DNA of 64,000 nt, taken from NCBI GenBank assembly GCA_032164295.1, contig JAJHTX010000011.1, forward strand, positions 930,001-994,000, read 5' to 3'. Under the pieces are notes generated by a model, which saw only the letters and a list, made by a program, of their open reading frames with translations, made no database searches and had not been told where the DNA came from. This DNA comes from Inonotus obliquus (lineage: Eukaryota; Basidiomycota; Agaricomycetes; Hymenochaetales; Hymenochaetaceae). Below are positions 28,016-46,267 of this stretch, piece after piece (positions within the stretch are counted from its first letter, which is position 1; every line of letters starts with the position of its first letter). A program made the position numbers and the translations under genes.

Positions 28016-31000
28016 GCGCGCTGTCCAGGTTGGCGCAGTTGCCAGTGCCATGATCTCGCAGTCCGTGGCGGTGGTTAGAGCGGCTGCTGCCATCTGTCTT
28101 GTGGCGATGGTGCTGCCGCCGTAAAGGATAACTGAGGAGGCGCCCGCTTTGCAGCGTGCCTGTGTTGTTTTCACTGAGCCGTCCGTGAAGACTAACAGGC
28201 GGCTAGTGTCACCGGACAGATCCAACGCTGCTTGAATGTATTCCTGGCGCGCGTCGGAGTCTGTCGGTGTGGGTGGTGTGTGGAAGTGCACTCGTCCTTC
28301 AGAGAAGGCCAGAGGTTCTTCCCAGGGGGCATGCGTGTATGCGGGAACTGGTTGGGCATTCGGCACTCGGTCTCTAAAAGAAAATGAAATTACACTATTT
28401 CTATTACCTATATGTTTTTTACGAAGAGAGGAAAGTGGCCTTAGCCCATGGTTATGTGGTGTACGGTAGTGTCTGAGGGCGGCTTTAGTTTTCAAAAGTT
28501 CTAGAGAAAATTTAAGGGGAGGGAGAGAAATAAGGAAATTTGTAGTAATACTGTTTGCGCCGCGGTAGACCCCAAGGATCCACCTCGTGGCGCTGTCTTG
28601 TACTTTCTGGAGGGAGGCGACAATCGTCTTTTGACGACTGCCGTGGTACCATACCGTTGATCCCCAGGTGAGGATGGATTGTACGCAGGCAATGTATAGC
28701 CTGCAGAGTAGTTCAGGGGACATCCCCCTCTGGGTGTTGGCGATGAGGCGCATAGCAGCTAGGGTGGAGAAGGCTTTGGCCTTCATTCTCACTGTATGTT
28801 CCCTGAAGTTGAGGTGCGGGTCGAACCAGATGCCGAGCCAGCGCATAGGGTATTGGGGCTTGACCGTTGCATCCTCCAGTGTGACGACTAAGTCGGCCCC
28901 GTCTGGAGTGATGTCCCATTGTTGCCTGAAGTGGATGACGTCTGACTTCTCCGCCTCAATGTCCATGTTGCAGCTGCGGAGTCTGTCTCGGAGGAGTTTG
29001 CATGCCTTCGCCAGTACACAGCAGTTTTTGGCGTAGTCGCTAGACCAGGTTACCAGTAGGTGGTCGTCCACGTATGCTATGATTTCCGTCCTTGCGACTC
29101 GACGTGCGGCTTCTAGGGCTTCTCTGGCGTAGATGGTGGCTAGGATGGGGGAGATGGGGGAGCCCTGTGGTGTTCCTACATCGGGTTTGGGCTGGGGTTC
29201 AAGAGTGATGCCGTCGAAGGACAGGGCTACTTCCCTCTTCGTTATGAAGGAGTAGATCCATGCATTCGTGTCCGTCGGGCAGCCTAGGGAGTCCAGGGTT
29301 TCCCTCAGCTTGATGGGTTCGACCTTGTCGAAGAAACCTTGAATGTCGACCGCTAGGGCCGAGCACTTCAGGTTCCTCCTCCATGCCGTTTCCACTAGGT
29401 TAGTCAGTGAGAGGGCCGCGTCGTGGATGGCATGGCCCTGGCATCCGCCGAATTGATTCGGTGGTAGCTATTTCTCTGTGTTCGCCAGGAATTGCAGACG
29501 GTTAGCTATCATCTTCTCCATGATTTTACCGAGCATCTCCTCCAGTGTGATTGGTCTGTAGGACCTTGGCGCGAAAGGATCCTTCTTGTTGGGTTTGCGA
29601 ATCATTACCACCTTCGCCGCCCGCCATGTTTTCGGGTGGTGCCCTAGACGCAAGCAGTTGTTGAAGAGTGAGAGAAACTCGTTAGGCAGTTCCGCCAGCA
29701 GCCACTTGAGTGGGCGGTAGCCTATTTCTGAGAGGCTAGGAGCGGAGAGGTTGGACGTGTGACGAATTGCGTCCATCATCTCCTTCCTAGTGAAGGGATG
29801 TGACCGCCGCTCGCTGTTGTTGTCGCGGGTGTTGGTTGGAGGTGGGGGGTCCGCTTGTGTGGGTGGGAAGTAGGTCTGGCGGAACAGTTCACCTTTCTCC
29901 ATGTCTGTTCATGTGAAGCCGTCCCTGGTCCTGAGCGACGGTATTGGCGTGGGGCGGATGCCCCTGCCTACCTTCGCCCAGTTCCAAACGTTGTATTGGT
30001 TAGTATTAGAGACTTTTTCTTCGTAGAACTCCCTTTTTGCCTTCCGAATCGAGGCGTTCAGGCCGGCGGCCTTAGCGTTTCATTCGGAAGGGGGGCACTC
30101 TCGCAGATTGTTTAGGGCCTGGCGGCAATGGTCATTCCACCATTCCACCGTTTTGAGTTTGGTAGGTTTTGCGGGGTGCAGCTGCAAGGCCGCTTCCCGC
30201 ATCACCTTTGTGAGTCTTTCGACCCTGGAGTCTAGTTCCTCCGCGTCCTCTGCAGGTCGCGCGAGGAGTCTGACTGTAGCCGGCATCACTATGTCGAGCC
30301 AATCCTTCTTCTTCGACTCGTCTAGTGGTGGCCTGGATTCTGGCGCGTCAGGGAGGTCCAGTTGGAGGGACCATTTGAGTAGGGCGTGGTCAGAGAGTCT
30401 GGTGTATTCCACTACATAGGAGTCGCGGATCTGTGTGGCGTCCGTTGTTGTTGGTACCCATATCATGTCGATTAGGCTGTTCGCCTCCCTGCGCGTTGGA
30501 GTGTCTGGGTTGAAGGCTGGTTGGAGGGCGTTCTCTTGGAAGAAGTCGTCCAGTTTCTTGCTTTGTCGGTCCCGGTACAGTCGGACCGGTAGGGAGGTCC
30601 AGCTGTCCCTCGTACGGTTGAAGTCTCCTGCAAAGATGGTTTGAGAGGCTAGGCTAAAGGGGAGGCTATAGAGGAAGGTTTCCCCAGAGTACGCCTCAGG
30701 GTGGTTATCCCTGCGTCTGGAGTCTGGTGGTTGGCAGCCGTAGAAGTTGCAGATATTAGTACCTTGTATTTGGATGGTTAGCACGTCAGTGCCGTGAGAG
30801 AGTGGTCCCACTATCGTCCATCCTGACGAGGGGAGGAGTTTGGATACTAGAGTGGCCACCCTTGGGCGGTCCTTTGGAGCGCCCAGAGGTAGGCAGGCGG
30901 TGTATCCCAGGAGGTTGGGCAGGCCATAGACCTCCTCTCCCTCTTTGTCTATTAGGGATGGAGTGATGCCGATTCGGTACCACGGTGGTTCTTGAATTAG

Positions 31001-31105
31001 TATTAGTAGGGGTCTATGATTAATTGGGATTTGGTCGAAGTTAGCAATGAGTTGCTCCATGGCGGCTCTGTGCCGCCCTACATTCCACTGGTAGATCCAC
31101 ACCAT
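28016..31105 (-). pseudogene. LINE ORF2: AP endonuclease, reverse transcriptase, first half of RNase H
   Basis: The start ATG at 31105 overlaps the ORF1 stop as TAATG. Endonuclease motifs come first (IYQWNVGR, ILIQEPPW, FAGDFNRTR, SLIDMIWV, LSDHALLKW). The reverse transcriptase follows, with SYRPITLEEMLGKIMEKM, LAVDIQGFFDKV, GTPQGSPISPILATIY and the active site AYVDDHLL, and then RNase H begins at RLLVFTDGSVK. Three in-frame stops kill it: TGA at 30082-30080, TGA at 29911-29909 and TAG at 29470-29468. Otherwise one frame runs the whole length. The two TGA codons are consistent with CGA-to-TGA transitions. Confidence 0.92.
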
Positions 31106-32758
31106 TACAAATCTTCTTCGCTCATTTCGATTTCGGAGCCAGGTTCGCTAGCTGAGGAGGTGATGATAAGAGGCGCCGTAGATTGGTACTTTTTGTGTCT
31201 GGGGCACGTAGGGTCTGTGGCCGAGTGGCGCCCTAGGCAGTTATGGCAGAGTTTAGGGTGGGGACAGTCTGTGCTGGCAGGTATGCCTTCACTCGCGCAG
31301 AGTCTGCACTTAGCGCGGTGGTCCTCTGTCCTGTGATTCAGGTTGCAGTGTGCGCATAGGGGGTTTCGTTTGCAGCCTTTAGCTACGTGTCCCAGTGCTT
31401 GGCACTTAGTGCATTGTGTGAAGGGGGGGGCGAGGGTGTCTGTACGACAGCCTCAGCCTCCTCCCGAATAGGTAGACGAGCGGCTTATTCATAAGTCGCT
31501 CGCGGACGTCCCCCTTGGGGTTGTCGAAGGTAATGGAGATTGGGCATGTGAGCAGAGCGCGCTCACCTTGCTCCGCCAGCCGTTCCGGTCTGGCGGTGTA
31601 GTAGGGAGTCGTCGCTAGTTTAATGTGTTGAAGGATGGGGTTGGCTCTCAGCTCCGCCAAGACCTCGTCCTGAGTGAAAGCCTGGTCCTTTGTGTTGAAG
31701 CGCACAAGTACCATGGATATGTTGAGTGTAGCGCACGGGACAACCCTGCACGCCTCGACTTCAGAGGTAGTGTTGACCAGCCGGCTTGCAATGGCCTGTG
31801 CCTGGAGGTCGATTTGTTCGGTGACGCCGTTGCCTGCCGCAAAGGTAATGATGGCATGCCCCTTGGGATTCCATCTGGCGGCTAGAACGCAAAGCTTGCT
31901 GGCCGTTGGCAGAGACTGCACGATGTCTCTGGCGGCTTTGCTGAGTAGGTAGTCGGTGGGGCGGTTGTTGGCCAGGATTGGGGGGTTGTAAGTGATTACC
32001 AGGGTGGGGTCCTTTGCCTTGGTGGTGATTGGGGGGAGTTTCCTGCGCTTTGGCGCATTCGGTTCCGGGGATGGGGGTGGATTGGTTGGGTGGTTGGTGG
32101 ATGGTGCGGCTGTGGCTGTGCTGGCAGCTTGGGCATATGTCATCCCCGTCGTCGTCGCCGCTGCTGGTGCTTGTGGTGGTGTTGTCCCCGTGTTGTGAGT
32201 TCTGGGGAGCGGCCTAGTGTTCTAGGTTGGCCGGGTTTGTTGTTGTTGTTGGAGGCCCGCGAACTTGTTGTTGAGGGTCTGAATTTCTGCTGACAAGCAT
32301 GCCAAGGCCGCCTCGATGGGAGCGCTAGCTCCTGTCTGCCGGCTTTGTTGGGCCTGGTTCATCAGTTGTGCGAGTGGTAGGAAGTCTCCGCCCCCTTCAG
32401 AATTGTAGCCGGCTTTAGCGTGTGCTAGTACCGCCTGGGCTAATGTGTCTCCTCTCCCCAGCTTTGTCAACTCATGAATCGTATTTATCGCCAAAGCGAG
32501 TGTAGATCCAATGAGTTTCCCCATCGCCGCAATAACCTCCTCTTCCGAGGGCGCGGTTTTGAGCTGGAGCTCCACCTTATCTTTTATAGCTTCCAGTGCT
32601 GGACCGAAACACAAAAGGGGCGTTACGGCTCTGCATTCGTGGACATTGTCCAGGCCCCTGGTAGCGGGTCGACGGGGCGAGAGTATCTTGGACAACGGTC
32701 GTTTCTGACCTCGCCGGGGAGCAGGAGTATCTATCACTAGGGGGCTGGGGAATCGCAC
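31105..32758 (-). pseudogene. LINE ORF1, gag-like protein with CCHC zinc knuckles
   Basis: The reading frame begins near 32758 (MRFPSPLVIDTPAPRRGQ). It meets an in-frame TAG at 32224-32222 and continues in the same frame through KRRKLPPITTKAKDPTLVIT. It is shifted by one base at an 8-base G run (31423-31430, plus strand). Past that point it resumes with nucleic-acid-binding knuckles (CTKCQALGHVAKGC, CAHCNLNHRTEDHRAKC, CHNCLGRHSATDPTC) and ends EMSEEDL at 31105. The function would be RNA binding in the LINE RNP. Two lesions make it inactive, unless the G-run shift is a sequencing error. Confidence 0.85.
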
Positions 32759-32792
32759 GCCGAAGACTTGGTCGCTCCATAAGGAGGGACAG

Positions 32793-33468
32793 TGTTAGGA
32801 CTTGAACTTTTCCTTCTTGCTCTGCTTACTTAATTCCTTATTTGTCATCTTCCTTTTCCGTATATGCTTACTCATCCTTATTATTCATCTTGCTTAGTCG
32901 CTCTTTACCGGAACGTTCTGTAATATTCTATTTTCCTTTCTTACTAATATTCTTCTTAGAGTAATATCTTCCCACATCTGGTGTGTATATAAGTAGATAG
33001 TCTGACTCATTTGTACCCCGTCTCACTATTCTTCTTACCACCACCATCCCTTAGGTAGTTACTCATTGTTTATACTAACTTAAATAAATCTTCTTACCAC
33101 CACCATCCCTTAGCCTGCGTGATCGTCTCCGTCGTTGTACAAGTCTTCGATGTTTGAGGCAGCGTACCCTAAGCTCTGGTGTGAGAGACCCCGACTCCGT
33201 TCAAGTACCCCCGAACCCATCGTTTCGCATAACATAATAGTGAGACCCACGTACCAGGACCATTCAGTGACCTCTGAGTTACCCAGACCTTGCTGTTCCC
33301 TCCTGCAGTCTCCTGTTGACGTCGAGTACCACCCGACGAACACGAGTTCTTACACACCCGGTTTCTACCGAGATAACAACAACCGGCCCGGAGACTGTCA
33401 AAGTTTCAGTGTAATTCCGATCCGTTACAACCCTTAACCCGAAGTCACCCTGGCGCTCATCGTTACCA
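32793..33468 (+). repeat. 5' LTR of element B
   Basis: It starts TGTTAGGACTTGAAC and most plausibly ends ...CGTTACCA just before TC-TGGTGCCGAGG (primer site). It has a good TATA box (TGTATATAAGTAG, about 32979-32991). A sequence containing CTTCTTACCACCACCATCCC is present twice near 33033 and 33090. The partner LTR is not in the window, so the 3' border is inferred from the PBS only. Confidence 0.65.
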
Positions 33469-33487: not shown

Positions 33488-33627
33488 CATTTACACCAAG
33501 GAATTCCTACACGTTCATAGTGCCCCGGGTTTCTCCATTGTCTTTCCTGCCTGGATCTTCCGTGTTGTAGTAAGGCTTACAGACTGTTAGAAAGGTAGTA
33601 TTATCCATCATTAATAAGCCAATAACT

Positions 33628-34398
33628 ATGAGCGTCCTACGTTGGATACAAGAGCGGTTAGCGGCAGTAATACAGGTACTAGAACAGCCCATCGTTCCCC
33701 CGACACCGCGAAGCAATATACTACGATGTTGCAACACGTGCCGCCCAGCTAAAGAACTAGCTGGAGGACTGATGCGAGAATTAATCAGAGAGATCACGTA
33801 CGGAGACATAATGAACGGACAAGCCGACATAATGATACGACGTCGATTTGTAGAACTAACCTACGACCCTAACCAACAAATGCAAAAGGCTTATGAAAGG
33901 GAGATACGAGTATTATCCTACGACGCCGGATACTTTGTAATGATGATCGGAATACGAAACGTAGCACAGGAAGGAAGACACGAACGATGCGACGCAGCTA
34001 TAGTAGATGTCGACATTGCTTACAAGCGAGACCAAACCGGAACGAATGAGAGGACTGCATATGCTTGGGGGCATTGGATAATGAATTACATAAGTCGAGG
34101 ATTACCTTATGGATATACCATAATGGAAACAAAGGTAGAACAGTACGGCGGAGTAATACACCTACAAGGAGTACAAGGGATAAACCTACAACGCGCCAGG
34201 ACAACACCAGGATATACACGAGTGCAAACTATTCGAAACTGGCTGACTGTACCACGACCGATCCTACCAATACCAACGAGACCCGAAATACAAGAACAGA
34301 TGACTCAGCAATTACCTAGAATAGCTGAATTGGATCAAGTGCCGTTACCTACACAAGGATCAAACCTATCTACAAGATGGTACCGCCCACTACACTAA
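33628..34398 (+). CDS. LTR-encoded 256-aa ORF, 5' LTR copy
   Basis: Same sequence as the 3' LTR copy at 43463-44233, starting MSVLRWIQERLAAVIQVLE. It lies upstream of the LTR TATA box, so the element's own genomic transcript from this LTR would not include this copy. It could only be expressed from an upstream promoter. See the 3' copy for description. Confidence 0.6.
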   Translation: MSVLRWIQERLAAVIQVLEQPIVPPTPRSNILRCCNTCRPAKELAGGLMRELIREITYGDIMNGQADIMIRRRFVELTYDPNQQMQKAYEREIRVLSYDAGYFVMMIGIRNVAQEGRHERCDAAIVDVDIAYKRDQTGTNERTAYAWGHWIMNYISRGLPYGYTIMETKVEQYGGVIHLQGVQGINLQRARTTPGYTRVQTIRNWLTVPRPILPIPTRPEIQEQMTQQLPRIAELDQVPLPTQGSNLSTRWYRPLH

Positions 34399-34545
34399 AC
34401 TAATCAAAGAGAGGCTAGTAACACAGAGGTAGTGAAATAAGGAAGGAAGTAAAGAGAAAGCACGGACCAGGTATCATAAAGGAAGAAACAGATAAATGCC
34501 ATAAACAGTAAGTAACAAGGTAGTAACGTCACACATGTAAATTAG

Positions 34546-34554
34546 TATATAAGG
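34546..34554 (+). promoter_or_regulatory. TATA box of the element C LTR
   Basis: TATATAAGG, about 490 bp before the LTR end, is the only strong TATA element in the LTR. It predicts transcription starting near 34575-34585. The last ATG before gag is at 34535, just upstream of it; none follows until 37128. The same site is at 44381-44389 in the 3' LTR. Confidence 0.65.
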
Positions 34555-35050
34555 AGGCCATCGTAGAGCCGACCTAGCAGTTTAATCCAAGTCAAGGGAC
34601 CCTACCATAAGTCCCTAAGTTAAATCGTAACATCAATTACTTGCGAGCCAGTAAATTACCAGTAGCGACACGGCTGAACTAAACCGATTGTGTGAAATCG
34701 AAGTGAAGCTAAAAATACGGATTGCAACTAGATTGTTCTCCCTATTGTCCGCACGGTACGAGCTACTCACAACGTAGTGCGATTCCCGATATTCCCTGAT
34801 CGTGAATAACAATCAGTATAACAATCGCGTCTTCACGCCGACTTAATACTGTACGATTATAGTATCAGGTTCAACTGCAATATTAGTTAGTTGCTGGTTG
34901 TTTCAGATCGGATCAGCTACACAGTCCACTAAGGTGATTAGCAATTCCATAACCAGTATTGTAGAATTTGGATTAACCCCTCAGACCGAGGAATAAGCCA
35001 GATTGGTCCGTCGATCAAGAATCAACGAACCCTCCACGGAGATAAACATC

Positions 35051-35068
35051 TGGATTAAACTCCCTTCT
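35051..35068 (+). promoter_or_regulatory. Candidate primer-binding site of element C
   Basis: TGGATTAAACTCCCTTCT begins two bases (TC) after the 5' LTR. The tRNA was not identified. Confidence 0.55.
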
Positions 35069-35150
35069 TGGCAAGCTTAAAGGAACAAGCGCAGACTACT
35101 GCCAATAAAGGTAATTGTGATAGCACGAACTAGTCATTCAAATAGACTGA

Positions 35151-35540
35151 TTGAATAATTCCCTTATCCGATCAGTAGGCCACCTGGAACGGCAAATAGA
35201 CATCAGTAACAACCACCGAAACCTAGAACCACAGGTCGGGTTAACATTGGAGCGTACAAAACAAACGCAGGAACGAGAACAAGGAGCGCCGAAGGATATA
35301 GACGCGTGGAAGCTAATAGCGAGGCAACCAATTTGGCAAGATCTCTACTGGGATCATTTCAAGACAGGGAGGGTTATAGGCAAGGTATCACCTACACCAC
35401 ACGAGAGTGTATTTAAGAGAGCGCTAGAAAACGGAGGAGGAACGTTATACTCCGCGCAAGCACACGCCAACCTATTACACCGAATACTACTAGCCCTACT
35501 CAACGGAAAGAAAGAGAAAGCAAAAGCAAGTAAAGTATAA
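35151..35540 (+). CDS. Element C ORFa, methionine-free leader ORF
   Basis: A 129-codon frame opens immediately after a TGA at 35148-35150 and contains no ATG in any position; the first possible near-cognate start is TTG at 35151. The predicted peptide is hydrophilic with a Trp-rich centre (DAWKLIARQPIWQDLYWDHF) and a Lys-rich tail (NGKKEKAKASK). No family was recognised. Translation would need a non-AUG start, an upstream exon, or an internal mechanism. It could be non-coding leader that happens to be open, but length and composition match its neighbours. Confidence 0.45.
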   Translation: MNNSLIRSVGHLERQIDISNNHRNLEPQVGLTLERTKQTQEREQGAPKDIDAWKLIARQPIWQDLYWDHFKTGRVIGKVSPTPHESVFKRALENGGGTLYSAQAHANLLHRILLALLNGKKEKAKASKV

Positions 35541-35575
35541 GCACAAAGTCAAATATATAATTAAATATAACTATA

Positions 35576-36175
35576 GTGGCTTACGAAGGAATATACGCGG
35601 GGCTGGTTACAGTATTCATATTTGGTACGATCTACTATAGGACAGCGATCGCAAGTGCGCTCAGACGAGGAACAAGACTACTTCAATACCTGTCTATTTA
35701 CGAACCCTACGCAACGCAGTGGGGGATATATCACTACTCAACTGCCATTGGAACGCAAGTGGACCGATTGGCCGGAAGGATCGAACTAATCCTCAACACA
35801 CAGGCTGAAAAGGATCAAGCATTGGGAGTGTACCTAGACCATCAGTTCAAACAACATATCGAGAAACATAGCCGCTGGCACAGGAGTAACGACGAGGCAC
35901 ACCATATCACCAGAACGTTAGTAAGGTACAACCAGACAGAGCTAGGCATCCTCAGGACAATAACGAGAGAAGTACAACACACCTTCGAGACGCTACAGCG
36001 AAGACAAGAAGAGCATATAGAGCGGTGGACTGCCCGAGAACACCGAGACGCCGAATTTCAGCGCGAACTATTAGATAAAGTAAGCCGCATCGAGACAAAC
36101 TTCCTACGCCTAAGGAATCAAGTGTCGGATATCAGAGTCGCACTCGCCGCGTGGGAAGGAGAAGAAAGACAGTGA
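35576..36175 (+). CDS. Element C ORFb, methionine-free membrane/coiled-coil ORF
   Basis: About 199 codons, open from 35561, without any ATG; GTG at 35576 is the first near-cognate start. The N-terminus has a hydrophobic segment (YAGLVTVFIFGTIYY) that could span a membrane. The remainder is helical and charged and looks like a coiled coil (TLQRRQEEHIERWTAREHRD, LLDKVSRIETNFLRLRNQ). It ends at a single TGA (36173-36175), after which the same frame remains open as ORFc. That raises the possibility of readthrough. Function unknown. Confidence 0.5.
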   Translation: MAYEGIYAGLVTVFIFGTIYYRTAIASALRRGTRLLQYLSIYEPYATQWGIYHYSTAIGTQVDRLAGRIELILNTQAEKDQALGVYLDHQFKQHIEKHSRWHRSNDEAHHITRTLVRYNQTELGILRTITREVQHTFETLQRRQEEHIERWTAREHRDAEFQRELLDKVSRIETNFLRLRNQVSDIRVALAAWEGEERQ

Positions 36176-37174
36176 GAGGAAACGGAAATCCAACAAGACT
36201 GGAACACCGTCGGATCGTTATTAGGAGACGATCAAGATCAACCAACGCCGGAACTAACTCAGTCCGAAGCCAGTTGGGAATCACCGAACGAATCGGAGCA
36301 GAACGGAGGAGAGTGGGGAACAGGGAGCCGTTGGGCAAATTCAGAACCAAACGGGTTTGGGGACTTCAACGGAGACGAAAGTTACAGGCACCCAGACTCG
36401 CCAATTCCCACTATTCCAGACGAGGAACCGGAAGAAGGAGAGATACAACTACACGTAGTCGACTTCAGGGCCCAGACGGAAAACGAAAGTGAGAACCTAA
36501 CTACAATCACGGAGGAAGAAGAAGGCATTAACCAAGAAAGTAGTACCTCCAGGGTTACACTTGATAACGGGAGAAGACTACCAAGCGGCATTAACGTTAC
36601 TCGAGATCAGACAGGGAACGTCCGCATAGACCTGCGAGGATTGGCTAGGTTAAATATAAACGAAATAGTCGAGGAAGTAATTACAGAGCTACAAGAAGAA
36701 CTAAAACCGACAAACGAACAAATCCCAACAATAACCATTAGTCGCAAATATCATCGAAAAGCAGATCAGGACAGAATAGCTAAAGAAATCATAGGTCGAA
36801 TCCGAGAACAAAGGGAAGCGAACAATAGGAAAGAAGAAACCAGAGAAGTCCAGAAAACCGAACGAGAACAGGGGATAATTGAAGAGGTAGAAACGAGGGG
36901 AAGGTTGGTGTTGTATTATTCCCCAGGATCCACGACCAGTGGCAATTCAGAAGAATTCTCCAGCCCATTCAGCGACGTTAGTCAAACCCACAGTAGCAAC
37001 ACTACAGAGGACGAATACCTAGAAGACAATTATCGAAGGCATTTAGCGTTACTAGAATTCGACCCAGCGGAACTCGAAATCTCGGAACAAGAACTTAGAG
37101 ACCGGTTGACTTGGGATTCAAGCGAAGATGACGAGCCTACAAATGAGTATGTCGCAGAAACCACCGAAGTTTAG
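36176..37174 (+). CDS. Element C ORFc, acidic methionine-free ORF in frame with ORFb
   Basis: This frame stays open for 332 codons after the ORFb TGA and has no in-frame ATG. The first half is acidic and Asn/Ser/Trp-rich (DWNTVGSLLGDDQDQPTPEL). The second half is Glu/Arg-rich and helical (EIVEEVITELQEELKPTNEQ). It overlaps the gag ATG at 37128 by 47 nt in another frame. If ORFb is read through, the joint product would be about 530 aa. An open frame of this length, next to ORFb and without Met, is unlikely to be chance. Confidence 0.5.
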   Translation, partial: EETEIQQDWNTVGSLLGDDQDQPTPELTQSEASWESPNESEQNGGEWGTGSRWANSEPNGFGDFNGDESYRHPDSPIPTIPDEEPEEGEIQLHVVDFRAQTENESENLTTITEEEEGINQESSTSRVTLDNGRRLPSGINVTRDQTGNVRIDLRGLARLNINEIVEEVITELQEELKPTNEQIPTITISRKYHRKADQDRIAKEIIGRIREQREANNRKEETREVQKTEREQGIIEEVETRGRLVLYYSPGSTTSGNSEEFSSPFSDVSQTHSSNTTEDEYLEDNYRRHLALLEFDPAELEISEQELRDRLTWDSSEDDEPTNEYVAETTEV

Positions 37175-38066
37175 AGGAAGAGATAAGGAGAACGTGGATG
37201 TATTTATAAATAAAATGATTAGTAATTTTGCATGGATGGATGCGCAAAATCAGAGCAACAAACAAGCGGCACTAACAGATAGTAACAAAGCCTATATCAT
37301 GTGCCAATGCATGGAAGAAAAGGCTGCCACGTGGGTAAGCACAGCGTTAAAAACAAATCCGCTAGATATGATAGGAAAAGGGCAAGTATGGGAAACGTTT
37401 GAAGAATTCTTGACCTACATAAGGAGTAACCATAAACAATACTACGACCCTGTAGAAGACGCAACGAATAAATTAGTAAATATTGTACAAGAAGGCTCCA
37501 TATTGCAGTACAATAGCGATTTCGGAAAGATAGTATCAGAATTAGATAAGGCAGTATGGCCGGATAAGGCACTTACAGTATTATACAGAAGAGGGATGAA
37601 AGATTATATTTATGCGCAATTAGCAGGACAAACGGAAAGCGCGAAATGGACGCTAGCAAACTGGATGAGCCGAGCAGTAGCACTAGAAGGCGCAAGATAT
37701 GGCGCCAAGGCAAGAACTAAGACCTTCACGAGCAACTGGGAAAAACCCCAGAGGAGAAAAGACGATGTAGTCCCAATGGACGTAGACGTACGAAAATTCA
37801 GGAAGAGGACTAATAAAGGAAAACCCAGGTACCGGAGTAACCAAAAACCGAAGAGTACGACGGGTTGTTACAGATGTGGTAAACCAGGTCACATTGCCAG
37901 AGAATGCAGAGTGAAACCACGAGAAGGAAAACCTCCGAGTAGACCGGGCTATCAAAAATTCAAGAGAAGATTGATAGGAGAAGAATCGGAATATGAAGGC
38001 TCCAACGAAGCTAGCGATAACGAGAAAGAAAGAGAACCTAAAGAGGATTTTCAAGAAAGCGACTGA
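37128..38066 (+). CDS. Element C Gag
   Basis: A 312-residue capsid/nucleocapsid protein. Its ATG at 37128 is the first ATG in the predicted genomic RNA, about 2.55 kb from the cap site. The capsid part contains KAATWVSTAL and EDATNKLVNIVQ-type helices. A single CCHC knuckle (CYRCGKPGHIAREC) lies near residue 250, followed by a basic then acidic tail. It ends at TGA 38064-38066. The in-register heptamer G-GAT-TTT at 38045-38051 precedes the stop and leads to pol in the -1 frame. Confidence 0.9.
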   Translation: MTSLQMSMSQKPPKFRGRDKENVDVFINKMISNFAWMDAQNQSNKQAALTDSNKAYIMCQCMEEKAATWVSTALKTNPLDMIGKGQVWETFEEFLTYIRSNHKQYYDPVEDATNKLVNIVQEGSILQYNSDFGKIVSELDKAVWPDKALTVLYRRGMKDYIYAQLAGQTESAKWTLANWMSRAVALEGARYGAKARTKTFTSNWEKPQRRKDDVVPMDVDVRKFRKRTNKGKPRYRSNQKPKSTTGCYRCGKPGHIARECRVKPREGKPPSRPGYQKFKRRLIGEESEYEGSNEASDNEKEREPKEDFQESD

Positions 38067-41000
38067 TCGAATCGGCTGATCAGCGCGCAAGAAGAGGGAC
38101 CATAACGAAACCAGAAGGAAGATGGTCGCGGGTAAAAGCGAAATGGAAACGCCGATGGACGACCCCGGTAAAACCAAATACTGATCATCCAAAACTGAGG
38201 ATATACCTCAGTCAGGGGGGAAAGAGAAACCTACCAATAACAGCAATGATCGACTCAGGATCAGTATTAACAACGATTAGTCCTAATACCGTCAAACGAT
38301 ATGGACTAGATACAATAAAGAAACAGAATCCTGCCCAAATTAGAAACGCAGATGGAACGTTAACGAATAACGGGTGGAAGGAAAGCGTTAGAGCATGGGT
38401 GGATACCGGAGCATCAAGAGGAAATATGGAACTCGCAGTAGTAGAAACTACAGGAGACAAATTTTTATTAGGAAATGATTGGATAGCTAACTATAAGCCA
38501 GTCATAAACTGGGAAACGGGTAAGGTAACAACTAGATTTGGGGAAGCCAAATTGTTAGGAACTCGGAATATGATAACGATGGAAAGAATGGCTCGATATC
38601 AACAGAAAAGAAGAAGAAAATCCCGTAAAATTAGATCTCCACTGCGAAGAGACTCCGAAGAAGGGTCCGAATCCGAAGGAGACACGGGATTAACAATAAG
38701 GTGGAATACCATGGGAAAGGCAAGCTTAGGGAATTTACCGACACCACCACCAAGGTCCGTACAAACCGCGGTGATTGTGGTGCCTCCAGAAGGAATACGG
38801 CCAACCACACTAACGCCTAAGGATGTCACAGTATTGCCAGCACCAGTAATGCAGTATAGGGAGTCGCAAGAAGGAATCGAATCCGACCCAGAGGAAGTCG
38901 AAGAAGTAGAAGAAACTACGGAAGAAAGGGACGAATTCCAAGAACAAATCTTGAGAAACTTTGGGAAATTAGCTGAAGAACTGCAAAGACTAGAGGAAAC
39001 AAATCTCGAAGACCCGCCGAGATCACCAGAAAGAACGGAAATAGCACTCCCAAGCATAGAACAAATAATATCCGGGGAAACACCGAGTAAAAGATTACCA
39101 CCGCAACCACCGCCAAAGATGCACCAAGTAGGACAAGGCGGAAGTAGAATAACTAGAGAGAGGAAAACGAGTTACCAAAAGGCCCGGGAAAACAAAACTA
39201 AATCAGAAGAGGTGGTATACGACCGAAACATGAGAATAACTGTACAAGTAAACGATCAAAAACCCCAAAACCGAGATTATAGCCGAAACAGCAGGATGAA
39301 AAAGGAAAGGACCGAGCAGGAAACAACCGCAATTAAGAAATTAAATAAGTATAGTAGTATGGCACAAAAGTACTCCCAGGAAAAAGCAAGGGAACAAGGA
39401 CGATCACAAATAGGAACGACTAAGCATTGGAAATCCTTGGTGCCTAAGGAGCTATGGGATTTCGGGGAAATATTTAGTGAGAACAATTCAAAACGACTAC
39501 CGAAGCACAATCAATGGGATATGAAAATAGTGTTTAAGGAAGGACAAGAACCAACAGCGAAACGAACCATTTATCCGCTAACGCCACTAGAACAAAAGGC
39601 AGTGGAAGAATTCATAGAAGACAATTTGGCAAAAGGATGGATCAGGAGATCCACTTCAAAGTACGCGATGCCGGTATTCTTCGTCGGAAAGAAGGATGCA
39701 GGAGCAAGAATGGTAATAGATTACCGACCAGTAAATGCAGTTTGTGAAGTAGATCAATACCCGATACCCATTATGTACACGCTACCCGACAATTTGGGAA
39801 AGGCCAAATGGTTCACCACGCTAGACCTTCGATCAGGATACAATAACATACGAATCCAAGAAGGAGACGAACATAAGGCCGCATTCCGAACACATAAAGG
39901 AGTATTTGAACCATTGGTAATGCAATTCGGAATGATGAATTCACCAGCAGTCTTTCAACGAGCTATGAACGAACTATTCGGAGATATGTTGAACCATGGA
40001 GTGATGATTTATCTAGATGACATCATTATCTATGCTGAAACGAAAGAAGAGCTGTTACAAAAGACGAGGAAGGTACTAGCCCGAATACGAAGAGCAGACT
40101 TCTATCTGAAACCGGAAAAATGCTTCTTTAACAAGCAAGAATTAGACTACTTAGGATTCATAGTAAATAAGGACGGATTAAAAATGGACCCGTACAAGCT
40201 CAAAGCAATAGAAGAATGGCCAGTACCGCAAAACAAACGAGATATAAAGAAGTTTACAGGATTTTGTAATTTCTATAGGAAATTTGTCAAGGACTATGCA
40301 GCAATAGCAAGGCCGATGAAGAAACTAGAATCCAAAAAACAAGCCTTTGTATGGGGAGAAGAGCAACAAAGGTCGTTTGAAGCCCTGAAAAAGGCCGTAA
40401 TCACAGGACCAATACTAAGAAGACCAGACTATGACAAAGCCTTCGTAGTAGAAACAGATGCATCGGACTATGGCATGGGAGCAGTATTATCACAAGAACA
40501 CGAAGGAAAACTGCATCCTATTGCCTATCTCACAAGATCCTTTACAACAACTGAAAGGAACTGGCCAGTATCCGAAAAGGAACTGTACGCAATTGTAATC
40601 GCCCTAACTACTTGGAGACACCATTTAGAAGGAGCGAAACATACTATCCTGGTACTATGCGACGTGTTGAACCTGAAGACCTTCATGAAAGCGCAACGAG
40701 TCGGACGAAAACAGGCCCGATGGGTCACGGACGTACTAAGTAGATATCAGTTCAAAATCGATTATCGACCAGGAAGCAAGAACACGAGAGCCGATGCGCT
40801 ATCCAGGAGATCAGGATATGACGAAGGAAAGAATGATAACAAGGACGTGATCGTATTACCAAGCGAGAGATTCGTCAACCCCAAAATATTTGATCGACAA
40901 GCTAGAAACAGCACAAGCGAGGGAATGGTACCGCCAAACGATAAATTAATACCCGGACAGGACCGGAAAAGGGATGTATTATATACCTTCCACGACTCAC

Positions 41001-42607
41001 CAATGAGCGGACATCCAGGAACAGACAAGACGATAGCAGCAATAGAAGAAATCTATTGGTGGCCGGACATGAAGGAAGAAATTAAGGAATATGTTGCCTC
41101 ATGCCACATTTGTCAAAAGAACAAACCTAGGAGGGGACGAACACAACCACCACTGAAACCATTGGAAATACCAACGGGACCATGGAAACATATCACCATG
41201 GATTTCATTACAGGACTTCCAGAAAGCGAGGGCTATGATGCGGTGCTAGTGGTAGTAGACCGGTTTTCAAAAATAGCAACGTTTATTCCCTGTACTAAAG
41301 AAACAGACAGTAAGAAAACAGCGAAGATGCTATTGGACCACGTATTCACGAAACACGGACTACCAGAAAGAATTACTAGCGACAGAGGCCCACAGTTTAC
41401 AAGCAACTTTACACAAGAAGTATATAAAGCCATGAATATTGACAATGCGCTTAGCACGGCACATCACCCACAAACAGATGGGCAAAGCGAAAGAGTAAAC
41501 CAGGAACTAGAACAATACTTAAGGCATTACGTAAACACAGCGCAAGACAACTGGGCGCAGTACATCCACATGGCAGAGTTTGCTTATAATAATAGAATAC
41601 ACGCAGCAATAAAGAAGTCACCATTTGAACTCCTTTATGGAAGGAAATTGGAAATATTGCCCATGGGGCAAGCGAACGCACCAGACGCACAAGAATATAT
41701 TAAAAAGGTATGGGAGGTACAGAAACAAGCAGAACAAGCGCTGATGGCGTCAAATGAACAGATGAAGAGATACACCGATAAACACAGGAGAGCAGAATTA
41801 GAATTCAAGGTGGGAGATAAGGTAATGATAGACGCTAGAAACTACAATATAGTAGTACCCAGCCGAAAGATAGGGCCGAAGAATTTAGGACCATACCGGA
41901 TAATCAAACAACATGGGCCATTAAATTATGAACTAGAATTACCAAAGAAGATGCGCATACATCCAGTATTGTATGCAGGCAATCTTATTAAATATCAAGA
42001 TAGAATAGTAGATGACACCACGGAAGACCAAGAAGTACCTTCGAATCCAGTCGTTGTAGAGGACGACGAATACGAAGTAGAGAGAGTACTAAATTCAAGG
42101 AAAACAGGACGGAAATATTACTTCTTAATAAATTGGAAGGGATACGGGGCAGAACACGACTCATGGGAGCCATTAGGGAACCTAGGAAACGCCACGGAAA
42201 AGATCGAGGAATACTATCAGAAACACCCACAAGCGGAGAAACCAAATTACATCGACGGATGGATTAGAAGGAATAACGAAAACGAAGAGAAAGGAAAGCG
42301 AACAGCCAGGAGAAGGATGATAAGTACCAGGAACCCGATAAAAATAAAGGATTTCGCGTATGACGAAAACAACCCATTACACACCAATCCTAGTGGTTCA
42401 TCGAGAACGGATAATCTAGAAGAAACATACCAGAGAGCCAAAAGCCCACTATCCAAGGAACAACATTGGGAGGAAGACGACGACAACATCAGGATGGATC
42501 CTGATCATGCCATAGAAGGAGATAAGGACGGAGGCCGCATCCGGCAAAGAAGTAGACGGTTAACGAAGCGGAAACCTACGGGTTCACACGAGGAACAGAG
42601 TATATAA
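38042..42607 (+). CDS. Element C Pol: protease, RT, RNase H, integrase, chromodomain
   Basis: The frame is open from 38042, overlapping the end of gag; the first in-frame ATG (38246) lies inside the protease motif, so expression by -1 frameshifting is expected. Domains: aspartic protease (IDSGSVLTTISP, LLGNDWI); reverse transcriptase (MVIDYRPVNAV, TTLDLRSGYNNIRI, active site YLDD near 40010-40021); RNase H (VVETDASDYGMGAVL, ADALSRR); integrase with HHCC finger (about 41000-41115) and catalytic D, D, E near 41200, 41381 and 41487; GPY-type module; chromodomain from about 42068 (EYEVERVLNSRKTGRKYYF, INWKGYGAEHDSWEP). A basic tail of ~120 residues follows. No inactivating change was seen. Confidence 0.93.
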   Translation, partial: RGFSRKRLIESADQRARRGTITKPEGRWSRVKAKWKRRWTTPVKPNTDHPKLRIYLSQGGKRNLPITAMIDSGSVLTTISPNTVKRYGLDTIKKQNPAQIRNADGTLTNNGWKESVRAWVDTGASRGNMELAVVETTGDKFLLGNDWIANYKPVINWETGKVTTRFGEAKLLGTRNMITMERMARYQQKRRRKSRKIRSPLRRDSEEGSESEGDTGLTIRWNTMGKASLGNLPTPPPRSVQTAVIVVPPEGIRPTTLTPKDVTVLPAPVMQYRESQEGIESDPEEVEEVEETTEERDEFQEQILRNFGKLAEELQRLEETNLEDPPRSPERTEIALPSIEQIISGETPSKRLPPQPPPKMHQVGQGGSRITRERKTSYQKARENKTKSEEVVYDRNMRITVQVNDQKPQNRDYSRNSRMKKERTEQETTAIKKLNKYSSMAQKYSQEKAREQGRSQIGTTKHWKSLVPKELWDFGEIFSENNSKRLPKHNQWDMKIVFKEGQEPTAKRTIYPLTPLEQKAVEEFIEDNLAKGWIRRSTSKYAMPVFFVGKKDAGARMVIDYRPVNAVCEVDQYPIPIMYTLPDNLGKAKWFTTLDLRSGYNNIRIQEGDEHKAAFRTHKGVFEPLVMQFGMMNSPAVFQRAMNELFGDMLNHGVMIYLDDIIIYAETKEELLQKTRKVLARIRRADFYLKPEKCFFNKQELDYLGFIVNKDGLKMDPYKLKAIEEWPVPQNKRDIKKFTGFCNFYRKFVKDYAAIARPMKKLESKKQAFVWGEEQQRSFEALKKAVITGPILRRPDYDKAFVVETDASDYGMGAVLSQEHEGKLHPIAYLTRSFTTTERNWPVSEKELYAIVIALTTWRHHLEGAKHTILVLCDVLNLKTFMKAQRVGRKQARWVTDVLSRYQFKIDYRPGSKNTRADALSRRSGYDEGKNDNKDVIVLPSERFVNPKIFDRQARNSTSEGMVPPNDKLIPGQDRKRDVLYTFHDSPMSGHPGTDKTIAAIEEIYWWPDMKEEIKEYVASCHICQKNKPRRGRTQPPLKPLEIPTGPWKHITMDFITGLPESEGYDAVLVVVDRFSKIATFIPCTKETDSKKTAKMLLDHVFTKHGLPERITSDRGPQFTSNFTQEVYKAMNIDNALSTAHHPQTDGQSERVNQELEQYLRHYVNTAQDNWAQYIHMAEFAYNNRIHAAIKKSPFELLYGRKLEILPMGQANAPDAQEYIKKVWEVQKQAEQALMASNEQMKRYTDKHRRAELEFKVGDKVMIDARNYNIVVPSRKIGPKNLGPYRIIKQHGPLNYELELPKKMRIHPVLYAGNLIKYQDRIVDDTTEDQEVPSNPVVVEDDEYEVERVLNSRKTGRKYYFLINWKGYGAEHDSWEPLGNLGNATEKIEEYYQKHPQAEKPNYIDGWIRRNNENEEKGKRTARRRMISTRNPIKIKDFAYDENNPLHTNPSGSSRTDNLEETYQRAKSPLSKEQHWEEDDDNIRMDPDHAIEGDKDGGRIRQRSRRLTKRKPTGSHEEQSI

Positions 42608-42701
42608 AGAAAAGAGTCGCCGACGAGATACCAGTATCCTTATCAATTCCTTTCACCACCGCCATCAAAACCCTAAACACGAGTACCAACGCCGAACGAA
42701 A

Positions 42702-42875
42702 ATGTCGAAAACCGTAGAACTTGTACTCGCGATAGTAGCGTTTGGATTGGTAATCATGATGAGTCTGATAATACAATGGAGAATGCAATTTTGGATATGG
42801 AGACAGGTGCGCAATCATTACAATAGAGAGATAGCAACCGTTAACCAGCTATCAGGAATTGAATCACCCGCCTGA
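42702..42875 (+). CDS. Element C ORFd, 57-aa single-pass membrane peptide
   Basis: It starts at the ATG at 42702, 95 nt after the pol stop (MSKTVELVLAIVAFGLVIMM). One strong transmembrane segment is followed by an aromatic/basic stretch (WRMQFWIWRQVRNHYN) and a short tail. It overlaps ORFe in the +1 frame over 42835-42875. Size and layout recall small viral membrane proteins (viroporin-like), but this is inference only. Confidence 0.5.
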   Translation: MSKTVELVLAIVAFGLVIMMSLIIQWRMQFWIWRQVRNHYNREIATVNQLSGIESPA

Positions 42876-43332
42876 AGAAGGCGTAGACCAAAACCCGATA
42901 GCGTTTGCGCACGGAGATGAAGATGAAGATGAAGATGAAGATGAAGATGACGATTACATCCCGATGCCGTTCATCCCCTGGCCAACCGAACAACAGATGG
43001 CGCAAGAAGGAGAACTATGGGCAAACGTAACAGCGCCCTCAAATGAAGATTGGGGAGACATCTCTACGTGGGGAGCAAACTGGCCAGCAGCGAACGACCC
43101 AGCACACTGGGATCACGAAACGTTCTGGACCGACGACGAATTTATTTTCGATAACTGGACGCCGGAACAATTAAACGAGATCTACGAGATAAGAAGGACC
43201 GCGAGAGAACAAATGAGAAACGAGTTAGTAAATCGAGCAGCGCTGGAGAGAGCGCTAGAAGAAGAACAGAACGCAGACGACGAAATATGGGTGGACATTC
43301 AGTTATGGTCGTCAAATGTAGAAGAATTTTAG
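42835..43332 (+). CDS. Element C ORFe, acidic protein
   Basis: The frame opens at 42835 inside ORFd. The first ATG is only at 42964; before that comes TTG at 42859 and an Asp/Glu repeat encoded by GATGAA triplets (about 42916-42950). The body is strongly acidic and Trp-rich (EDWGDISTWGANWPAANDP) with a helical C-terminus. It may be translated from 42964, from a non-AUG start, or as a +1 fusion to ORFd that would give a membrane-anchored acidic protein. Confidence 0.45.
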   Translation, partial: QPLTSYQELNHPPEEGVDQNPIAFAHGDEDEDEDEDEDDDYIPMPFIPWPTEQQMAQEGELWANVTAPSNEDWGDISTWGANWPAANDPAHWDHETFWTDDEFIFDNWTPEQLNEIYEIRRTAREQMRNELVNRAALERALEEEQNADDEIWVDIQLWSSNVEEF

Positions 43333-43339
43333 CTCAAAA

Positions 43340-44233
43340 ATGGGCTTAAGAATTATGAATAAAGAATATGTGTCATGCATTCCTTATGATTATGTCAGAT
43401 GCATTCCTAGAAGGGGGAGTGTTAGAAAGGTAGTATTATCCATCATTAATAAGCCAATAACTATGAGCGTCCTACGTTGGATACAAGAGCGGTTAGCGGC
43501 AGTAATACAGGTACTAGAACAGCCCATCGTTCCCCCGACACCGCGAAGCAATATACTACGATGTTGCAACACGTGCCGCCCAGCTAAAGAACTAGCTGGA
43601 GGACTGATGCGAGAATTAATCAGAGAGATCACGTACGGAGACATAATGAACGGACAAGCCGACATAATGATACGACGTCGATTTGTAGAACTAACCTACG
43701 ACCCTAACCAACAAATGCAAAAGGCTTATGAAAGGGAGATACGAGTATTATCCTACGACGCCGGATACTTTGTAATGATGATCGGAATACGAAACGTAGC
43801 ACAGGAAGGAAGACACGAACGATGCGACGCAGCTATAGTAGATGTCGACATTGCTTACAAGCGAGACCAAACCGGAACGAATGAGAGGACTGCATATGCT
43901 TGGGGGCATTGGATAATGAATTACATAAGTCGAGGATTACCTTATGGATATACCATAATGGAAACAAAGGTAGAACAGTACGGCGGAGTAATACACCTAC
44001 AAGGAGTACAAGGGATAAACCTACAACGCGCCAGGACAACACCAGGATATACACGAGTGCAAACTATTCGAAACTGGCTGACTGTACCACGACCGATCCT
44101 ACCAATACCAACGAGACCCGAAATACAAGAACAGATGACTCAGCAATTACCTAGAATAGCTGAATTGGATCAAGTGCCGTTACCTACACAAGGATCAAAC
44201 CTATCTACAAGATGGTACCGCCCACTACACTAA
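43340..44233 (+). CDS. Element C ORFf, U3-crossing accessory protein (nef/sag-like position)
   Basis: A 297-codon ORF starts 8 nt after ORFe (MGLRIMNKEYVSCIPYDYVR), reads across the polypurine tract and LTR border, and continues for 813 nt inside U3. The conserved LTR part includes NILRCCNTCRPAKELAGG, ITYGDIMNGQADIMIRRRF and YAWGHWIMNYISRG. It ends ahead of the LTR TATA box. No homologous family is recognised. The frame survives intact although U3 must also act as promoter, which suggests selection for the protein. Position resembles that of lentiviral nef and MMTV sag; no sequence relation is claimed. Confidence 0.6.
   Translation: MGLRIMNKEYVSCIPYDYVRCIPRRGSVRKVVLSIINKPITMSVLRWIQERLAAVIQVLEQPIVPPTPRSNILRCCNTCRPAKELAGGLMRELIREITYGDIMNGQADIMIRRRFVELTYDPNQQMQKAYEREIRVLSYDAGYFVMMIGIRNVAQEGRHERCDAAIVDVDIAYKRDQTGTNERTAYAWGHWIMNYISRGLPYGYTIMETKVEQYGGVIHLQGVQGINLQRARTTPGYTRVQTIRNWLTVPRPILPIPTRPEIQEQMTQQLPRIAELDQVPLPTQGSNLSTRWYRPLH
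43409..43419 (+). promoter_or_regulatory. Polypurine tract of element C
   Basis: AGAAGGGGGAG lies immediately before the 3' LTR start TGTTAG. It would prime plus-strand synthesis and is at the same time inside the coding frame of ORFf. Confidence 0.8.
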
Positions 44234-44883
44234 ACTAATCAAAGAGAGGCTAGTAACACAGAGGTAGTGAAATAAGGAAGGAAGTAAAGAGAAAGCACGG
44301 ACCAGGTATCATAAAGGAAGAAACAGATAAATGCCATAAACAGTAAGTAACAAGGTAGTAACGTCACACATGTAAATTAGTATATAAGGAGGCCATCGTA
44401 GAGCCGACCTAGCAGTTTAATCCAAGTCAAGGGACCCTACCATAAGTCCCTAAGTTAAATCGTAACATCAATTACTTGCGAGCCAGTAAATTACCAGTAG
44501 CGACACGGCTGAACTAAACCGATTGTGTGAAATCGAAGTGAAGCTAAAAATACGGATTGCAACTAGATTGTTCTCCCTATTGTCCGCACGGTACGAGCTA
44601 CTCACAACGTAGTGCGATTCCCGATATTCCCTGATCGTGAATAACAATCAGTATAACAATCGCGTCTTCACGCCGACTTAATACTGTACGATTATAGTAT
44701 CAGGTTCAACTGCAATATTAGTTAGTTGCTGGTTGTTTCAGATCGGATCAGCTACACAGTCCACTAAGGTGATTAGCAATTCCATAACCAGTATTGTAGA
44801 ATTTGGATTAACCCCTCAGACCGAGGAATAAGCCAGATTGGTCCGTCGATCAAGAATCAACGAACCCTCCACGGAGATAAACA
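43420..44883 (+). repeat. 3' LTR of element C
   Basis: 1464 bp, matching 33585-35048. Followed directly by the CAGAC target duplication and the leader of element B. Confidence 0.95.
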
Positions 44884-45112
44884 CAGACGGCTTGCCGACA
44901 AACTTACGTCAGCGCCTAGACCCATTACCCGTACCCCCTCCTCGTCGTTAAACGTTGTCGAGAACTCATCATCGACGTGCCTTACTACTAGACGCTGTGG
45001 AGAGAGACGTAGACAAACTATTTGTTCAGACTCAACCACGTCGCCTCCGTCCCCCACTCCGACGTCAAGAAGCGACTCGGACGTATCCTCTCTAGAGACT
45101 CCTGTACTACGA

Positions 45113-46267
45113 ATGTCAGGTGGACAAGGACAACAACCAGTACCCCCTCCTGTTCCTCCTAGAGCACCAACCCCTCCGATGGCACAAGGTTTCAATCAGA
45201 CACAGATGCAGCAGTTTGCGCAGATGTTCGCGTTGGCCCTGGGGCAGATGCCGCAACCTGCAGCCCCCCCAGCCCCACCACCAAAGACTCGTGCAAAAGA
45301 ACCGAGCGAGTTTGATGGCAGCAACTACAAGGACTTCAAACGCGAGTATACCCTTTGCTTTGAGTCTGATCCAAGGTCGTTTCCAACAGGCAAGAGCAAG
45401 ATCTTCTTCGTTCTTTCGTATATGAGAGGAGGAGCGGCCAGCACATGGGCTCAGAACTACGTCGATGCGAACCAAGCGAATGGTATTCCAGATGACTGGG
45501 CCGCCTTCCAAACAACCCTAGATAAGTCGTTCAACGATCCGAACAAGAAAGAGAAGGCGCTGGAGGATCTTAGGTGCCTGACTCAAGGGAAGATGACAGC
45601 CGACGAATTCTTCGTCAAGCTCGATATTAAGCGACAGGCAGCTGGTATTATGGATGCACTGCATGATGGTATCCTTATCGATCGCTTGAAATATGCACTG
45701 AACCTAGAGGTTGTCAAGGGAGTCATGCGCTCAGCCACCGTCCCTACCACCTATGATGGCTGGAAGGCCAAAGCGATAGACGTCGATAGGATCGAGCAAC
45801 AGTTGCGTCGTGTTTCTACAACTAGGACAGGTCCTCCCCGCTTGAACTGGCCAAACCAAACCCAAACGAGGAACCCACCCCAAGTCCAACAGCCACAGCA
45901 ACGTCAGCAGCAGGTCCCTCCAGTTCAGCGTGATCATCAGGGAGTAGGACCAGGAACTCACCCTGGGATGGGCATACCTATGGACATCGTTGTCGAACGA
46001 GCAAAGAGGAGCTTTAACTGCTGGGCCTGTGGAACACCAGGACACATCGCAGCCAAATGCCCTAGGAAGGAGCAGATTGTGCGGGCAACAATAACGGCAT
46101 GGGAACCAGAGATGCGCCAGCTCTTTGCAGACGAACTGGGAAGAATGAAGGAGAGTGCCTTTCAATCGATCGACCAAGGTCCCGAGGAGCTGCGAGTGAT
46201 GCAAGCTGATGCAGAGGAGGTCGATGAAGAAAGGGGAGTGGAGGATTTTATCAAGGACCAGGAGTAG
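45113..46267 (+). CDS. Element B Gag
   Basis: 384 residues beginning MSGGQGQQPVPPPVPPRAP. A Pro/Gln-rich N-terminus is followed by a typical Ty3/gypsy capsid segment (PSEFDGSNYKDFKREYTL, SYMRGGAASTWAQNYVD, FNDPNKKEKALEDLRCLTQG), a Gln-rich linker and one CCHC knuckle (CWACGTPGHIAAKC). The frame is intact. Near the end GAG-GAT-TTT places a GGATTTT heptamer at 46243-46249 in slippery register, and the pol frame (-1) is open through it, as in element C. Confidence 0.85.
   Translation: MSGGQGQQPVPPPVPPRAPTPPMAQGFNQTQMQQFAQMFALALGQMPQPAAPPAPPPKTRAKEPSEFDGSNYKDFKREYTLCFESDPRSFPTGKSKIFFVLSYMRGGAASTWAQNYVDANQANGIPDDWAAFQTTLDKSFNDPNKKEKALEDLRCLTQGKMTADEFFVKLDIKRQAAGIMDALHDGILIDRLKYALNLEVVKGVMRSATVPTTYDGWKAKAIDVDRIEQQLRRVSTTRTGPPRLNWPNQTQTRNPPQVQQPQQRQQQVPPVQRDHQGVGPGTHPGMGIPMDIVVERAKRSFNCWACGTPGHIAAKCPRKEQIVRATITAWEPEMRQLFADELGRMKESAFQSIDQGPEELRVMQADAEEVDEERGVEDFIKDQE

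Follow-up and report, generated by a model that had tools for sequence, protein, structure and literature searches.

A 64-kb window of the Inonotus obliquus genome (assembly GCA_032164295.1, contig JAJHTX010000011.1, positions 930,001–994,000 of the forward strand) contains a chromovirus, a long terminal repeat (LTR) retrotransposon, in which no AUG precedes gag over a leader of some 2.5 kb, and this leader nevertheless appears to encode two proteins under selection. Ribosomes most likely scan the entire leader to reach gag. On the sense strand an ATG at 34535 is followed by none until the gag start codon at 37128, leaving 2,590 nucleotides (nt) without a single ATG (34538–37127; Table 1). An earlier note on this DNA had described the stretch as ATG-free and proposed a count against shuffled sequence, and that count bears the description out: 0 ATG are present, whereas 1000 dinucleotide-preserving shuffles average 23.5 and never fall below 12. 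ATG is the sole trinucleotide absent from the stretch, the second-longest gap between sense ATGs in the window is 743 nt, and nothing is unusual about the reverse strand over these positions, where 27 CAT occur.

The absence of ATG is a property of the family. Searching the assembly (36 Mb, 30 contigs) for other copies recovered 14 full-length leaders and 4 pieces that apparently derive from two interrupted copies, counts that are lower bounds. Nine of the 14 full-length leaders hold no ATG and the remaining five hold one each, at five different sites; three of the four pieces are free of ATG and the fourth has one. The earlier note had recognized three open reading frames (ORFs) in the leader, ORFa, ORFb and ORFc, of 129, 199 and 332 codons and without methionine (Met). 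The open frames and their lack of Met stand, with the correction that ORFb (35561–36175) spans 204 codons from stop to stop, not 199. ORFb and ORFc (36176–37174, 332 codons) are not two frames: they share one frame, and in 13 of 13 other full copies they form a single ORF of 534–537 codons, Met-free in 12 of them. The stop at 36173 that divides them is private to the window copy, which rules out ORFb and ORFc as separate genes, and the joined frame is called ORFbc here.

Avoidance of AUG in RNA can be distinguished from avoidance of Met in protein by shuffling synonymous codons, which preserves the protein, and counting ATG out of frame. In ORFbc this count is 0 against 9.7 expected in the window family (copy L010) and 1 against 7.4 in a second, diverged family, where ORFa is also depleted (0 against 2.9, P = 0.006). 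Neither the window element nor the second family is depleted of ATG in gag, pol or the U3 ORF, and the same holds for the parts of the ORF downstream of pol (post-pol ORF) in the window element; these parts, which act as a control, contain Mets. The codon shuffles indicate that the RNA avoids AUG whatever the frame, and does so only ahead of gag. The near-cognates CUG, GUG, UUG and ACG, even where a purine stands at −3 and G at +4, show no depletion in the two families' leaders, and initiation at such codons is therefore apparently too infrequent to be selected against. The proposal that selection acts against upstream AUGs so that scanning ribosomes reach gag gains support from the 0 ATG in three frames, the normal internal controls, the diverged family and the weak AUG of a third family described below.

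Substitution patterns indicate that the leader is coding sequence. Pooled over the 14 full copies, with the four pieces left out, the ratio of nonsynonymous to synonymous differences (pN/pS) is 0.145 for ORFa, 0.057 for ORFb and 0.155 for ORFc, compared with 0.046 for gag and 0.7 to 16 in the other two frames. Values this far below 1 across genomic copies, a check that the earlier note had suggested, indicate that ORFa and ORFbc are under purifying selection. Homologues in the second family are 30% (ORFa, with homology starting near 35190) and 33% (ORFbc) identical over the alignments, and from the low pN/pS and these homologues we conclude that two proteins are encoded in the leader. In both families ORFbc carries a hydrophobic stretch at its N terminus (best 19-residue means of 1.86 and 2.26), and the protein as a whole is acidic (isoelectric points of 4.8 and 4.3). 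The ORFbc frame overlaps the start of gag by 47 nt, stop included, in the window element and ends 23 nt before gag in the second family. A protein search in which the 7987 candidates sharing most words with ORFbc were scored gave none at E ≤ 0.001, comparison by sequence with solved structures gave none at E ≤ 0.1, one scan of viral contigs gave 91 pattern matches of which none was confirmed, and in Pfam neither ORFa nor ORFb had a match and the one for ORFc stayed below threshold. The start of ORFbc may be constrained at the RNA level as well: in its first 80 codons (35573–35812), shared amino acids keep the identical codon between the families in 28 of 36 cases, whereas the share in pol is about half, although one other 40-codon stretch of ORFbc scores as high. 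The predicted fold of the window family contains a possible helix ATAGTGG/CTACTAT, with the second strand ~60 nt downstream, which is absent from the fold of the second family.

Two further families in the same genome place the leader in a comparative frame. The second family, represented by L035, has a gag 55% identical to that of the window element and holds 2 ATG, at 2324 and 4063, across the ~2.6 kb between TATA box and gag. The ATG at 2324 is absent from the 90% identical relative L036 and from the window family. L036 has decayed, carrying stops in both gag and pol, and its 8 leader ATG are as expected once selection ends. In a third family, whose gag is 24% identical to the window gag with CCHC knuckle and protease matched, we examined 7 (L040, L041 and L071–L075) among 16 loci listed at 23–24% gag identity, two of the seven stretches stopping short of the leader start. 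Here all 7 copies keep one leader AUG, whose context is weak (TATATGC), and two of them have one further ATG each. This AUG opens a 293-codon ORF (L040:2830–3735) that is intact in 6 of 7 copies, has a pN/pS of 0.076 and overlaps the gag AUG, which lies in strong context (ACAATGG), by the same 47 nt as in the window element. Like the window element, the third family thus combines an AUG-poor leader with a long selected ORF running into gag; unlike it, the leader ORF has its own AUG, in weak context, and no sequence similarity was found between its protein and ORFbc. The third family carries a second kind of apparent leaky-scanning leader. In each of the families the TATA box marks the beginning of the desert: the last upstream ATG precedes the box by 11 nt (window family), 11 nt (second family) or 12 nt (third family), matching the prediction of scanning from a start site in the LTR.

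We propose that the genomic RNA begins just past the LTR TATA box, that the leader would be part of the gag mRNA and that ribosomes would scan ~2.5 kb to the gag AUG, with selection purging AUG in all frames despite the presence of two genes, ORFa (about 115–130 codons) and ORFbc (about 530 codons, with its N-terminal hydrophobic segment). Scanning of the whole leader is favoured by the AUG-free copies, the depletion of out-of-frame ATG and the third family with its one weak AUG, and we put the probability that scanning of an AUG-purged coding leader is the best explanation as a whole at roughly 70%. Some observations weigh against it. The distance is long, the longest precedent found in the available parts of the cited sources being 900 nt; the second family retains a short out-of-frame AUG in ORFbc, L035:4063, which is common to L036; and the out-of-frame depletion of window-family ORFa is weak when taken alone (0 against 1.9, P = 0.05).

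Within this scheme ORFa would start at a non-AUG codon or as part of a fusion, and ORFbc at the conserved ATAGTGG site in ATAGTGGCTTAC, which is compatible with a GUG or AUA start (G at +4) or with a 3′ splice site. A GUG or AUA start and an AUG made by splicing appear about equally likely, with a slight preference for splicing in the second family. In the splicing version, which we give not quite an even chance, removal of a 47–48-nt intron between ORFa and ORFbc would create a strong-context AUG for ORFbc, and splicing would act as a switch, unspliced RNA yielding Gag-Pol and spliced RNA a membrane-anchored leader protein. The second family carries a consensus intron exactly on the site: L035 3193–3240 (48 nt) reads GTAAGG...CTAAT...GATAG, and its removal joins A to TGG to give an AUG in the ORFbc frame and in strong context. 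The second-family leader matches the pattern A/GTRAG..CTRAY..YAG/TG (slashes marking exon boundaries) once, precisely where ORFbc starts, and 0.4% of 500 shuffles contain one or more matches; the pattern was defined after the site had been seen, and looser signals are found in 6% or 27% of shuffles. Decayed L036 keeps the donor and branch consensus, the exon ends in A in both families, and the spliced AUG would have G at −3 and G at +4. For comparison, host introns were taken from 13 small stretches between actin and tubulin matches, with intron ends read by eye in six; these six span 52–69 nt, with donors GTGAGT, GTACGT, GTATGT or GTATGC, CTRAY-like branch sites in most and acceptors mostly TATAG, TGTAG or GCAG, signals that we read as fungus-like, and acceptors of the TATAG/TGTAG type agree with the proposed splice. 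Splicing may also occur elsewhere in the element, at the post-pol ORF, where L038 has a 47-nt GTGAGT...CTAAT...ATAG and the window counterpart (49 nt) has weaker signals; removing these stretches leaves the frame open in both families.

Against a splice-made AUG, the donor of the window-family candidate is weak and a branch site of consensus type is lacking; the leader of this family does not hold the strict pattern, and its one match to a looser intron pattern lies elsewhere (35654–35721). The candidate introns are shorter than the six host introns, none of 16 places in the genome holds an intron-less copy, all keeping the unspliced form, and no splice was found that would provide ORFa with an AUG, so that splicing alone fails to explain the leader. 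The fuller claim, that a splicing-gated start codon chooses between Gag-Pol and a membrane-anchored ORFbc in a leader otherwise devoid of AUG, is put forward as tentative and rather less than an even bet; the genomic weak AUG of the third family looks like the alternative state to a splice-made AUG.

The other version of the start step, quite possible if somewhat short of evenly balanced, is leaky scanning of the tungrovirus kind with no splicing, ORFa and ORFbc both starting at near-cognates (GUG or AUA in ATAGTGG for ORFbc) and the majority of ribosomes bypassing the two starts to arrive at gag. The preservation of ATAGTGGCTTAC in the window family, L035 and L036 fits this version, as does the context of its GUG, with A at −3 and G at +4; ORFa is without AUG whichever version holds, and a precedent exists for an AUU start combined with AUG-free ORFs (PMC5902531, in the portion available). 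However, good-context near-cognates are not avoided and so are seemingly read poorly, the in-frame near-cognates that the families share close to the start of ORFa, AUA and AUC/AUU in the conserved block, lack full context (purine at −3, G at +4), and the second-family consensus intron would have to be a coincidence. The earlier note's claim that the leader encodes protein from non-AUG starts divides: pN/pS and homology uphold the encoding, whereas the non-AUG starts are less certain, since near-cognates in good context are not avoided and, at least in the second family, a consensus intron could supply the ORFbc AUG.

Routes to gag that bypass scanning of the leader, by an internal ribosome entry site (IRES), a shunt or termination–reinitiation after ORFbc, are improbable. 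The end of ORFbc, 47 nt into gag in one family and 23 nt before it in the other, is compatible with reinitiation, and R-U5 is slightly more stable than its own shuffles (5 windows), but none of these routes requires AUG-free frames over 2.5 kb, and gag and pol are at least as structured as the leader ORFs. The pararetroviral shunt of Caulimoviridae requires a short AUG-started ORF before a stable hairpin, and a leader without AUG has no such ORF. An IRES or a shunt as the sole route to gag is rejected, since neither needs an AUG-free leader. We reject an internal promoter near gag or an intron removing the whole leader, both very unlikely, because the loss of AUG would then have no reason and because, in each of the three families, the desert sets in at the TATA box of the LTR. 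A compositional accident or hypermutation of a single copy has next to no probability, as the shuffles, the other copies and the diverged second family rule out chance, composition and damage to one copy.

The parallel with tungroviruses drawn by the earlier note is apt. In the available part of the source (PMC5902531), tungroviruses have leader-side ORFs without internal AUGs, the first of which starts at AUU, and the polyprotein AUG is reached by scanning. The I. obliquus leader has upstream coding ORFs without internal AUGs, and the likeness extends to a first ORF without AUG and to a reverse-transcribing element. As far as that part of the source goes, the two differ in several ways: about 2,550 nt would be crossed here compared with 900 nt, almost three times the distance; tungrovirus ORF II has its own AUG, whereas neither leader ORF does here; a shunt over a short-ORF leader comes first in the virus, whereas this leader is without any AUG; and host and element class differ, as does the possibility of a splice-made AUG. 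Epstein–Barr virus EBNA-LP, in which an alternative splice junction creates the AUG (excerpt of PMC12451641), resembles one device proposed for ORFbc in that splicing makes a start codon absent from the genome; it is established there and inferred here, and the two are otherwise unrelated. Extra ORFs as such are familiar, as the portions seen of two sources describe plant LTR retrotransposons whose additional ORFs lie between pol and the 3′ LTR (PMC7264820) and fungal Gypsy elements with an 'add. ORF' of unknown function (PMC2864245). The window element likewise adds ORFs to gag-pol, one of them a membrane-like post-pol ORF; the plant ORFs sit after pol, and neither source, in those portions, describes an AUG-free leader. 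Chromoviruses comprise most fungal Gypsy elements (PMC3248453, in part), and queries of the open-licence literature, several of them narrow and covering titles and abstract openings, returned no description of a chromovirus with an AUG-free coding leader. The leader thus resembles a known principle, leaky scanning, and would extend it to a far longer leader, without any AUG, in a chromovirus.

As ~2.5 kb of coding RNA purged of AUG yet not of CUG, GUG or ACG, the leader can serve as a natural test of the scanning range of eukaryotic ribosomes and of the strictness with which they pass over near-cognates, and the presence of leaders with no AUG and with one weak AUG allows a comparison of two states inside one genome. 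Through this leader a chromovirus also gains two Met-free proteins under selection, both of which gene finders that require ATG would probably miss.

The complete element spans 33585–44883, flanked on each side by the 5-nt target duplication CAGAC. Domains above the Pfam cut-off in gag and pol include, in order, PF13975, PF00078, PF17917, PF00665 and PF00385. The presence of gag and of pol with protease, reverse transcriptase, RNase H and integrase in that order, followed by a C-terminal chromodomain, and of LTRs with TG...CA ends identifies the element as a chromovirus, in agreement with the label that the earlier note had given it.

Table 1 Features of the window element and its leader, in window positions
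Feature	Position	Strand	Description
5′ LTR	33585..35048	+	TG...CA ends; 1464/1464 nt match to 3′ LTR
TATA box	34546..34552	+	Located by eye
ATG-free leader	34538..37127	+	R-U5, primer-binding region, ORFa, ORFbc
Conserved non-coding block	35104–35180	+	Primer-binding region to ORFa; narrower span 35111..35175 between LTR and ORFa; GTAAYTGTG ... CTGAT ... AG
ORFa	35151..35540	+	129 codons stop to stop, no Met
Candidate intron	35530..35576	+	47 nt; removal would join A 35529 to TG 35577, giving AUG in frame with ORFbc
ORFbc (earlier ORFb + ORFc)	35561..37174	+	Single frame in 13 other copies, interrupted here by stop at 36173
ORFbc start region ATAGTGGCTTAC	35573..35584	+	Identical in window family, L035 and L036
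gag	37128..38066	+	Ty3 capsid, CCHC zinc knuckle; first AUG on unspliced RNA
pol	38042..42607	+	Protease, reverse transcriptase, RNase H, integrase, chromodomain
Post-pol ORF, two parts	42702..43332	+	Hydrophobic N-terminus; possible short intron 42807–42855
3′ LTR	43420..44883	+	1464 nt; U3 holds 256-aa ORF, ATG 43463 to stop 44233

Other parts of the element are also conserved. U3 of the LTR encodes a conserved protein of 256 amino acids (aa; 33628–34398 and 43463–44233) that is 45% identical to its second-family counterpart. Its 125 genome matches lie far above the number of full copies, and the protein is therefore presumably present in solo LTRs too. It has one metagenomic relative and a predicted fold of low confidence (predicted local distance difference test score, pLDDT, 57), with no match in Pfam and none in a comparison with PDB at E ≤ 0.001. 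The post-pol ORF is acidic, like ORFbc. The strongly conserved non-coding block at 35104–35180 could, from its intron-like signals, be an intron in the 5′ untranslated region. Two segments that resemble each other, ATTTGGATTAACCCCTC in U5 (34966–34982) and CATCTGGATTAAACTCCCTT at the LTR end (35047–35066), are identical across the window and second families and may have a role in priming. The element is inserted directly before the gag of another retroelement (ORF 44777–46267, Retrotrans_gag above cut-off), and minus-strand ORFs lie nearby at 30080–32794, one of which matches PF14529 and PF03372 (endonuclease-reverse transcriptase type endonuclease); this neighbour is likely a long interspersed nuclear element (LINE).

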